Positions 24,077 through 26,564 of a DNA stretch of 64,000 nucleotides are shown here, piece by piece. A model generated the notes under the pieces. The model had not been told where the DNA came from and did not search any database. It saw only the letters and a list, made by a program, of their open reading frames with translations. The position numbers and the translations under genes were made by a program. Source of the stretch: Armatimonadota bacterium (lineage in GTDB: Bacteria > Armatimonadota > Fimbriimonadia > Fimbriimonadales > Fimbriimonadaceae). Position 1 is the first letter of the stretch; every line of letters starts with the position of its first letter. Location: assembly GCA_018268315.1 (NCBI GenBank), contig JAFDWU010000001.1, positions 776,324 to 840,323 on the forward strand, written 5' to 3'.

Positions 24077-24976
24077 TTAGCCTGCTACGAGGAGCTCGTG
24101 GCCGGTCACCCTGCGGAAGGCTTCTAGATACTTCTCCCTGGTCTTGGCCACGATTTCGGCCGGTAGCTCAGGGCCAGGCGGGCGCTTGTCCCAATTCAGC
24201 GTCTCAAGGTAGTCCCGCACAAACTGCTTGTCGAAGCTGGGCTGCGGCTTGCCGGGTTCGTAGGAATCGGCGACCCAATAGCGGGACGAGTCAGGTGTCA
24301 ATGCTTCGTCGATCCAGATGATTTCGCCATCAACGAGGCCGAACTCAAACTTGGTATCCGCAAGAATAAGGCCCACGCTCTGGGCATGTTTCTGAGCCTC
24401 GCTAAAGATGGCGAGCGTTACCTCTCGCAGCTTCTCCGCGGTTTCTTTCCCAACAAGGTTTGCCGCTTCATCAAAGCTCAGATTTTCGTCGTGCCCCTCC
24501 TCTGCCTTCGTGGCAGGCGTGAAAATCGGCTCAGGCAGCTGTGAGCTTTGGATCAATCCTGGCGGAAGATTGAGCCCGTGGACATTGCCACCAAATTTCT
24601 GATAATCCTTGAGCAGCGATCCCGAAATATATCCTCGCGCCACACACTCGATGGGAAATGGCTCTGCTTTGCGGGCAAGAAGGCTTCTGCCCCGCAGTTC
24701 TGGAAGCTTTTGGCCGATTCGTCCGGCAATGACGTCGTCGTCAACGCTTATCACCTGGGTGGGGCATAAGTGGCCGAGCTTTTCGAACCAGAAAGCGCTC
24801 ATCTGGTTCAGCACCACGCCTTTATCGGGGATGCCGTTGGCCATGATCACGTCGAATGCGCTGATGCGATCCGTTGCAATGATGAGCAACTCGCTTCCGA
24901 GATCGTAAACTTCGCGCACCTTGCCTTGTTTAGGGGCAGGCAAACCGTCAATATGAGTGTGAAGCAGGGCGGCCAT
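24077..24976 (-). CDS. purC: phosphoribosylaminoimidazole-succinocarboxamide synthase
   Basis: This purine synthesis enzyme joins CAIR and aspartate with ATP to give SAICAR. The 299-residue length matches the longer, yeast-type form. Motifs are QGKVREVYDLG at the start (ATP loop), TDRISAFDVIM, ECVARGYISGSLLKDY and KFEFGLVDGEIIWIDEALTPDSSRYW, which contains the metal- and nucleotide-binding acidic residues. No other pur genes are adjacent. GAAGG sits directly before the ATG and TACTTT lies seven bases upstream, so ribosome loading could be of either kind. Confidence 0.97.
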   Translation of the reverse strand: MAALLHTHIDGLPAPKQGKVREVYDLGSELLIIATDRISAFDVIMANGIPDKGVVLNQMSAFWFEKLGHLCPTQVISVDDDVIAGRIGQKLPELRGRSLLARKAEPFPIECVARGYISGSLLKDYQKFGGNVHGLNLPPGLIQSSQLPEPIFTPATKAEEGHDENLSFDEAANLVGKETAEKLREVTLAIFSEAQKHAQSVGLILADTKFEFGLVDGEIIWIDEALTPDSSRYWVADSYEPGKPQPSFDKQFVRDYLETLNWDKRPPGPELPAEIVAKTREKYLEAFRRVTGHELLVAG

Positions 24977-25005
24977 CCTTCACAAAGTATGGCCCAAGAA
25001 AGCCG

Positions 25006-26439
25006 TTACTGACCCTGACCCAACGTATATCCTGGCTTCCCATCGAAGAGGCAAAGCTGCTCGGTCTTGATGAAGTCAATTCCCTTATCCTTAATCCTCT
25101 GCAGAAGATCGATGAGGTCCTGCTTATCCACGTTCGTCCCTTCGAATCGGCAACGCCAGTGGTCCACCAATCGCGTTTCCGGATGGCGCTGCGGCCACAC
25201 GCGAAGCCCGCGGTTTGTGATCATCTTGAGCTGCAGTTTGTCGCCTTGGCAGGCAACCAAGATATCGCCCAGCGGTTCTGGCGTATCGTGCCACTCCACG
25301 AACACATCCACTCCAACAAGCTTCTTCGTTTGCTGTGGTCCACCGGCGCCGGGAATCTCGGGAATCTGCACTGCTAAAGTTTCAGCGTATGGCTCCAAGT
25401 GCTGCGGCTTTTTATCGAGTCTGGCGACTACCGCTGCTGCTTGCTCGCCAGCCGTCATCGATCCGCCGATCACGCCGTCCTCGATTGCCGCGAGAACTGC
25501 GTTGCGAATTCTCTCCGCAACTTCTGAAACCTGAAGATAATCCAGCATCATGCAAGCGGAGAGAAGCAGGGCGGCTGGGTTTTCGCGATCTTCGGTAGAG
25601 GATCGATCGCACAAGGGCTCAAAACATCCGAATCGCTGACTGAAGTTCGCCGACGGCACATAAGACTGCGTCCCCGTCACTGCTGCCAGCAAGTTGGCGA
25701 TTAAGTCGCCATACATGTTCGGTGTAACCACCACATCCAGTTCCTGGGGCTTGGTCGCAGCAAGATTTAAGCCCTCATCCACTCGCAAGTGTTGGCGCTG
25801 AATATGCGGATATCGATTCCCTATCTCTTCAAAGACCTGTAGGAATAGGCCATCCGTTTGCCTCATCAGATTGTCCTTGGTAAGGCAGGTAACGCACTTC
25901 CTTCCGTTAGCGACGGCGAATTCAAAGGCATACCGGACTACGCGCTCGCATCCAGACCGCGTAATCAACTTTAAGCACTGGGCAACATCGTTAGTCTGGC
26001 GATGTTCAACCCCCGCGTAAAGGTCCTCCTCGTTTTCGCGTATCACCACAACGTCAATCTGACCATGCAGGGTGTAGTCGCGAATCGGGATTACGCTCGC
26101 GAAGAGTGCGAGAGACTTGCGGAGCGTTACATCTAAGTTTTTGAAGCCATGCTCATCTGGCGTGGAGCACGGCGCTTTAAGGAGGGCTCGACATTCGCGC
26201 AGGACCGCCCAGGAATCTTCGGCAATGCCTGAGGAGGTTCCCGCTAAGAAGATATCTCGCCCCATCGTAACTTGCCGAAAGTCCAGAGGAGCTCCGGCAG
26301 CCACCAGGACCCGGAGGGTTGCCGACATGATCTCCGGCGCGTCTCCTGCCGCAACCGCGATCGGAATGAGGTTATTTGAACCTGACGTCGTTCCTTGTGC
26401 TTCTTTATTTGCGACTTTCATTTCGTATATAGATATCAT
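25006..26439 (-). CDS. isocitrate dehydrogenase-like protein with altered active site
   Basis: The 477-residue protein aligns along its length with Thermus-type NADP isocitrate dehydrogenase, including the extra C-terminal domain (DVFVEWHDTPEPLGD, VDHWRCRF, FDGKPGYTLGQGQ). Conserved active-site elements are Arg134 and Tyr141 in IRENEEDLYAG, Lys188 in TKDN, Asp221 and Asp245. Others are changed. The substrate-loop SxN becomes Asn101-Asp103, and the second binding arginine (canonical RP) is Ile117. The last metal aspartate is Asn249, the N-terminal GDGIGPEV is AAGDAPEI, and the nucleotide loop HGSAP is CDRSS. It may have lost activity or changed substrate. A winged-helix regulator is divergent to it. 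A start at 26421 is also possible. Confidence 0.88.
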   Translation of the reverse strand: MISIYEMKVANKEAQGTTSGSNNLIPIAVAAGDAPEIMSATLRVLVAAGAPLDFRQVTMGRDIFLAGTSSGIAEDSWAVLRECRALLKAPCSTPDEHGFKNLDVTLRKSLALFASVIPIRDYTLHGQIDVVVIRENEEDLYAGVEHRQTNDVAQCLKLITRSGCERVVRYAFEFAVANGRKCVTCLTKDNLMRQTDGLFLQVFEEIGNRYPHIQRQHLRVDEGLNLAATKPQELDVVVTPNMYGDLIANLLAAVTGTQSYVPSANFSQRFGCFEPLCDRSSTEDRENPAALLLSACMMLDYLQVSEVAERIRNAVLAAIEDGVIGGSMTAGEQAAAVVARLDKKPQHLEPYAETLAVQIPEIPGAGGPQQTKKLVGVDVFVEWHDTPEPLGDILVACQGDKLQLKMITNRGLRVWPQRHPETRLVDHWRCRFEGTNVDKQDLIDLLQRIKDKGIDFIKTEQLCLFDGKPGYTLGQGQ

Positions 26440-26471
26440 AGCGGAAATTGGCTTCGTATGTCAACATTGTC

Positions 26472-26486
26472 GTCGATTTCATCGAC
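26472..26486. promoter_or_regulatory. palindromic operator candidate
   Basis: GTCGAT and ATCGAC are perfect inverted arms around TTC, in the divergent gap between the isocitrate-dehydrogenase-like gene and the winged-helix regulator gene. Size and symmetry fit a dimeric winged-helix regulator. Confidence 0.4.
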
Positions 26487-26564
26487 AACTTCTATTTCGC
26501 GTATCCAAACTGACGAAAACTAGGGGACAATACTGACGCAAGCGGTAACGCACTAAAGGAGCAC

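Follow-up and report, generated by a model that had tools for sequence, protein, structure and literature searches.

The window analysed here, a 64,000-nucleotide stretch of an Armatimonadota genome, carries on its minus strand a degenerate homologue of Thermus-type isocitrate dehydrogenase (IDH), P0001, at positions 25006 to 26439. Its reading frame opens with ATG and continues for 477 codons with zero internal stops and no frameshift or truncation, in keeping with the first-pass annotation, which had called the gene intact. The annotated ATG falls inside the -10 box of a strong promoter match (TTGACA-18-TATGAT, 26435 to 26464, minus strand), and a second ATG at codon 7 (26421) matches the start position of icd genes in relatives; translation therefore probably begins at 26421 and yields 471 aa. 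Further upstream, an inverted repeat that occurs once in the window (TTGTCGATGAAATCGACGACAA, 26467 to 26488, minus strand) is a possible operator, and the gene for HTH1, a 106-aa winged-helix regulator, runs divergently to P0001 (26565 to 26885, plus strand). On the other side, purC begins 29 nt past the end of P0001 (window 24976-25006) in the same direction and may be co-transcribed with it.

P0001 combines the PF00180 fold (Iso_dh domain, residues 30-327, positions 25459 to 26352, minus strand) with the C-terminal domain PF18324 (residues 372-477, positions 25009 to 25326, minus strand), and both are recovered by Pfam, AlphaFold and Foldseek. The top solved structure by sequence is 2D1C, the IDH of Thermus thermophilus, which aligns to residues 22-477 (E 4.8e-93) and so upholds the earlier statement that the protein follows the Thermus-type enzyme throughout. 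Among NCBIfam models the best is NF006673 (Thermus-type IDH), to which P0001 scores 474.6 bits, below the curated cut-off of 509. The scores against TIGR00169, NF040626 and TIGR02089, the models tested for isopropylmalate (IPMDH), homoisocitrate and tartrate dehydrogenases, are 99, 208 and 110 bits, below cut-offs of 353, 540 and 470, respectively.

Active-site substitutions and retained parts of the protein

We read the key sites in an alignment of P0001 with 115 other long homologues from genomes of its family and from a scan of GTDB contigs, and number them by what we take to be the corresponding residues of E. coli IDH (S113, N115, R129, D311 and so on). All 115 are canonical at S113, N115, R119, R129, R153, Y160, K230, D283, D307, D311, H339, G340 and A342, and S341 is kept in 114. 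The GTDB scan covered the best 80 of 139 relatives, and every one of these is canonical at the checked sites; 78 entered the alignment, and the remaining two (L071 and L116) were checked separately. From S113 to G340, in the order just given, P0001 reads N, D, R, I, R, Y, K, D, D, N, C and D. The substrate Ser and Asn are thus replaced by N101 and D103 (26131 to 26139, minus strand, as are all positions in this section), the substrate Arg by I117 (26089 to 26091), the last metal Asp by N249 (25693 to 25695) and the HGSAP nucleotide loop by CDRSS (residues 277-281, 25597 to 25611), just as the first-pass annotation had reported. That annotation had passed over three further features: a two-residue deletion that turns the family's GDGIGPE into GD--APE, a set of six retained residues, and a fully conserved C-terminal domain.

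The six retained residues are R107, R134, Y141, K188, D221 and D245, equivalent to R119, R153, Y160, K230, D283 and D307 of the family. Two of the three metal Asp therefore stay (D221 and D245) and the third is Asn. K188 (25876 to 25878) and D221 (25777 to 25779) align with the Lys and the metal Asp that are lent in trans to the active site of the partner subunit. We can set aside an alignment artefact as the source of the losses because the sites lie in conserved, unambiguously aligned blocks at which every other homologue is canonical. P0001 is very probably a pseudoenzyme, or at minimum not a working IDH; the earlier expectation that it has lost normal IDH activity becomes a strong prediction.

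The divergence of P0001 is extensive and also unevenly distributed. Among 97 columns that are at least 98% conserved, P0001 departs from the consensus at 26 and the next-worst sequence at 4; among 147 columns at least 95% conserved across 128 canonical rows, P0001 departs at 43 and the worst canonical row at 11. Counted by region over these 147 columns, P0001 deviates at 11 of 34 columns within residues 25-125, at 1 of 17 within the clasp (126-165), at 6 of 25 within 166-230, at 7 of 16 within 231-260 and at 18 of 32 within 261-345; none of the 23 C-terminal columns (346-477) is changed. The clasp and C-terminal part together are changed at 1 of 40 columns, compared with 42 of 107 among the remaining columns (Fisher p 3e-6), and the C-terminal part is significant taken alone (Fisher p 2.6e-4). 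Despite its deletions, P0001 yields a confident AlphaFold model (mean pLDDT 89.9, weakest over residues 1-20 and in some loops) whose top PDB match in Foldseek is again 2D1C, with a TM score of 0.89. Taken together, the regional counts and the 2D1C-like model show that the fold and the dimer-forming parts have been preserved while the active site was lost.

This pattern can be set against the known architecture of the group. In the excerpted text of PMC3521221, IDHs of subfamily IV are homodimers of 480-500 residues in which roughly 100 C-terminal residues form a second clasp over the first. P0001 resembles these Thermus-type enzymes (2D1C, subfamily IV, NF006673/PRK09222) in whole length, fold, both domains, clasp and C-terminal dimer domain, but it lacks their catalytic Ser and Asn, R129, D311, HGSAP and part of GDGIGPE, and it falls under the curated score for the group.

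Paralogues, regulators and degenerate relatives

The genome holds five PF00180 genes: P0001, the LeuB-like L001, two short IDH-like enzymes with canonical key sites (L002 and L003; 333 aa and 337 aa among them) and L004, a canonical Thermus-type IDH of 494 aa that is 48% identical to P0001. The search for a canonical icd that the first-pass annotation had proposed is thus answered by L004, and its refuting case, a genome with no other IDH, does not apply. L004 lies on a different contig and shares no operon with P0001. A recent duplication of L004 was rejected as the source of P0001, as the tree groups L004 with L041 and a P0001-L004 clade has an AU p of 0.024, a value to be read with a long-branch warning.

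HTH1 had been described as the gene's own divergent regulator. The regulator is real, but it is not private to P0001: the same HTH stands divergently upstream, within 800 nt, at 27 of 48 own-phylum canonical icd loci (those sharing 55% or more identity with L004 and having 400 nt of upstream sequence), L004 included, and at 4 of 79 named loci, three from Acidobacteria and one from Actinomycetes. The HTH2 adjoining L004 is 51% identical to HTH1, so the IDH-HTH pair occurs twice in this genome. The intergenic stretches between icd and HTH often resemble CGACATAnnnTTCGTGTATTAT, followed within a few bases by the icd ATG. In several loci (L004, L007, L037, L168, L184 and others) this operator-like palindrome overlaps the icd promoter, and in L004 it also overlaps the HTH start codon. 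The P0001 promoter is sited like the canonical icd promoter of relatives; the right half of the palindrome is degenerate there, and the inverted repeat at P0001 is a separate element. When the own genome was searched with the operator pattern, the canonical icd was the sole good match (one mismatch); at two mismatches there were two further places, against one in a reversed-pattern control. Our literature search found nothing describing an icd-linked winged-helix regulator of this type. This regulator, together with the palindrome as its candidate operator, accompanies icd across much of the phylum and appears to be undescribed.

With P0001 as query, 82 matches at E 1e-85 or better were obtained across 80 of 291 phylum genomes, and apart from P0001 itself neither these genomes nor the GTDB contig scan contained an orthologue above 53% identity. 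Key sites were read in the IDHs fetched from matching phylum genomes, a subset of the 82 matches, and among these are two further degenerate Thermus-type IDHs. L178 (L178:1029-2510, contig G158:C55) carries N115D, R119G, D283E, D307E and D311I, with QGAL in place of HGSA, and has an HTH gene immediately downstream in convergent orientation. L180 (L180:1299-2402, contig G160:C2) carries D283V, D307E and D311M, with HGPQ at the HGSA position; it is cut by the contig end, which makes its first residues, including an apparent R153H, doubtful. Like P0001, both combine active-site losses with a kept C-terminal part (0 of 23 columns changed in L178, Fisher p 0.004; 1 of 23 in L180, Fisher p 0.07) and share their genome with a canonical IDH encoded elsewhere (L179 in G158, L193 in G160). 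Unlike P0001, they have lost different residues, and the other IDH of their genomes is of a more distant Thermus-like kind.

L178 and L180 form a pair with support of 100/97, share D307E, and differ from each other mostly at synonymous sites (pN 0.29 vs pS 0.84), which would mean that selection acted on the protein after catalysis was lost, provided their ancestor already had D307E. The best tree joins P0001 to this pair with support of 75/40, and the three share I144V, L242M and N103D, all conservative exchanges. We do not treat them as a proven single clade, since the support is only 75/40 and the shared replacements could be chance. The branch of P0001 is very long, at 2.3-3.6 changes per column (3.5 in one tree) vs a median of 0.2-0.5, and those of L178 and L180 are about twice the median.

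Possible roles of P0001

We propose that P0001 is a pseudoenzyme retained for a non-catalytic role, likeliest as the partner of a catalytic IDH in a heteromer that we infer, a reading to which we give a probability of roughly 0.4; a stand-alone pseudoenzyme ranks second and decay third. In such a heteromer, P0001 would pair with a catalytic subunit, with L004 as the first choice. One active site of the heterodimer would work, with K188 and D221 of P0001 completing it in trans, and the other would be empty or a ligand-binding pseudo-site. This pseudo-site might tune IDH activity as yeast IDH1 and animal IDH3 beta and gamma do. HTH1 and a promoter of its own would govern the expression of P0001, separately from the canonical icd promoter, and its origin would be independent of the eukaryotic regulatory subunits. 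The pattern of retained parts fits the regulatory role that the first-pass annotation had allowed for.

A precedent lies in the mitochondrial enzymes, where IDH3 beta and gamma and yeast IDH1 are, like P0001, IDH paralogues with deficient catalytic sites that accompany a catalytic one. The excerpted account in PMC5241874 has the active site of human IDH3 formed by the alpha subunit together with a Lys and an Asp contributed by the gamma subunit, and K188 and D221 are the equivalents of these trans-lent residues in P0001. In the alignment, human IDH3 gamma has Ile at I117 and Asn at N249, and so shares with P0001 the replacements of the substrate Arg (R129) and the metal Asp (D311). The resemblance has limits: of the two metal Asp compared, for which regulatory subunits have Asn or Thr, P0001 has replaced one (N249) and kept D245, an Asp that gamma lacks, and P0001 has lost the citrate-binding Ser and Asn of gamma, which makes a gamma-type citrate pseudo-site unlikely. 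According to the excerpted text of PMC6827300, human IDH3 beta carries a pseudo-allosteric site to which no activator binds, which makes a ligand-free dead site a known arrangement.

Overall similarity points in the same direction, though it should be read with care. In phmmer comparisons, the score falls from the canonical paralogue to P0001 from 265 to 175 bits against yeast IDH2 and from 236 to 155 against human alpha, the catalytic chains, and from 216 to 157 against yeast IDH1, 185 to 160 against beta and 185 to 164 against gamma, the regulatory ones. The drop is far larger to IDH2 and alpha than to beta and gamma, with yeast IDH1 intermediate. In Foldseek the first gamma chain ranks 3rd for the P0001 model and 20th for the canonical model. 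Part of this similarity is what the loss of catalytic residues would yield on its own, with no common function. Nor does P0001 belong to the clade of eukaryotic subunits, given its PF18324 domain, its 48% identity to a bacterial icd and its weaker eukaryotic matches. The catalytic/regulatory split of eukaryotic IDH arose within eukaryotes, as excerpted from PMC8333347, and P0001 sits in a bacterial group defined by the C-terminal domain, so any likeness is convergent.

Several observations weigh against a partnership with a catalytic IDH. L004 is on another contig, and the P0001 promoter lacks the right half of the canonical icd operator. The trans-lent Asp is gone in both degenerate relatives (Val in L180, Glu in L178), indicating that the lending of catalytic residues is not conserved there. 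P0001 also departs from gamma in keeping D245 and in losing the Ser and Asn for citrate, and a homodimer would require the same clasp and C-terminal surfaces as a heterodimer. This last point applies equally to an unlikely but serious alternative, in which P0001 is a stand-alone homodimeric pseudoenzyme, for example a metabolite sensor or a partner of the HTH regulator, and not an IDH subunit. The partial substrate site left by the six retained residues would suit such a function, and degenerate copies still have an HTH gene as neighbour, which runs divergently at P0001 and is convergent and adjacent at L178. The same HTH adjoins canonical icd genes as well, however, so its adjacency is inherited and not specific to P0001. 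We know of no IDH that acts on a DNA-binding partner, and our literature search found no such case.

A less likely explanation still is the slow decay of P0001 as a redundant copy, with the active site the first part to erode once the gain of a second IDH had relaxed selection for catalysis. Its very long branch, its isolation among the phylum genomes and the presence of another full-length IDH in each of the three genomes with degenerate copies would all be expected of such a gene. Against decay stands the open reading frame. When the canonical gene was mutated at random to 50% identity, at least three stops arose in 300 of 300 runs (mean 10.1), and every gap between P0001 and its paralogue is a whole number of codons; both observations show selection during most of the history of P0001, although a recent release would be compatible with them. 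The untouched C-terminal columns, the promoter match and the intact HTH1 also speak against decay, as does the synonymous bias between L178 and L180 alongside their shared D307E. The first-pass view that the gene is not simply decaying thus draws support from these relatives, while late decay of P0001 itself persists as a rival.

The same annotation had suggested a changed-substrate role, which is unlikely given the loss of the nucleotide loop and of all three substrate residues (Ser, Asn and Arg). More generally, we consider it improbable that P0001 retains enzymatic activity on another substrate or in a non-redox reaction, for example as an NAD-free decarboxylase or lyase. Y141 and K188, the Tyr and Lys of general catalysis, are retained together with two of the three metal Asp, but the third metal ligand is Asn, part of GDGIGPE is missing, and the scores fall far below the IPMDH, homoisocitrate and tartrate dehydrogenase cut-offs. 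That P0001 is an ordinary active IDH made to look otherwise by a misleading alignment is scarcely credible: the overall alignment and fold are good, but the altered sites sit in unambiguous blocks that are canonical in every other homologue, and the NF006673 score is below its threshold.

To our knowledge, allosteric control of the TCA cycle by a catalytically dead IDH subunit is known solely from eukaryotes, and our search of open-licence papers found nothing describing a bacterial regulatory IDH subunit. More tentatively than the partner reading itself, we suggest that P0001 may represent a bacterial heteromeric IDH in which a dead subunit, evolved apart from the mitochondrial ones, uses its intact clasp and C-terminal domain to control a catalytic IDH, in a phylum that allows the duplication of IDH-regulator pairs. 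If so, the degenerate copies in three genomes would amount to a recurring bacterial means of TCA cycle regulation. A bacterial parallel in another IDH subfamily would also show that homomers can repeatedly give rise to heteromers with catalytic and regulatory subunits, and it would offer small, expressible models of that transition.

Other arrangements of IDH genes

Three further ideas were tried and dropped. Genomes of family f2 (L013-L018, L142-L153) encode two different long IDHs, both apparently active, one Thermus-like and the other with a divergent C-terminal domain. We rejected their second copies as regulatory subunits, since 12 of 12 IDHs are canonical (13 regions were covered, of which L154 gave no match). 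Control of IDH at the glyoxylate branch was likewise set aside, the PF00463 match being only partial and weak, in a 307-aa frame, and a viral origin of P0001 was discarded with zero matches in viral contigs.

Split IDHs form a separate arrangement. Within the same genome as P0001, the short IDH L003 is adjoined by a stand-alone PF18324 ORF (G000:C3:83214-83498). Similar stand-alone ORFs of about 100-160 aa adjoin IDHs of 333-340 aa in many genomes of the order (for example on G030:C2, G032:C18 and G005:C2), and the second clasp of these split enzymes may be supplied in trans.
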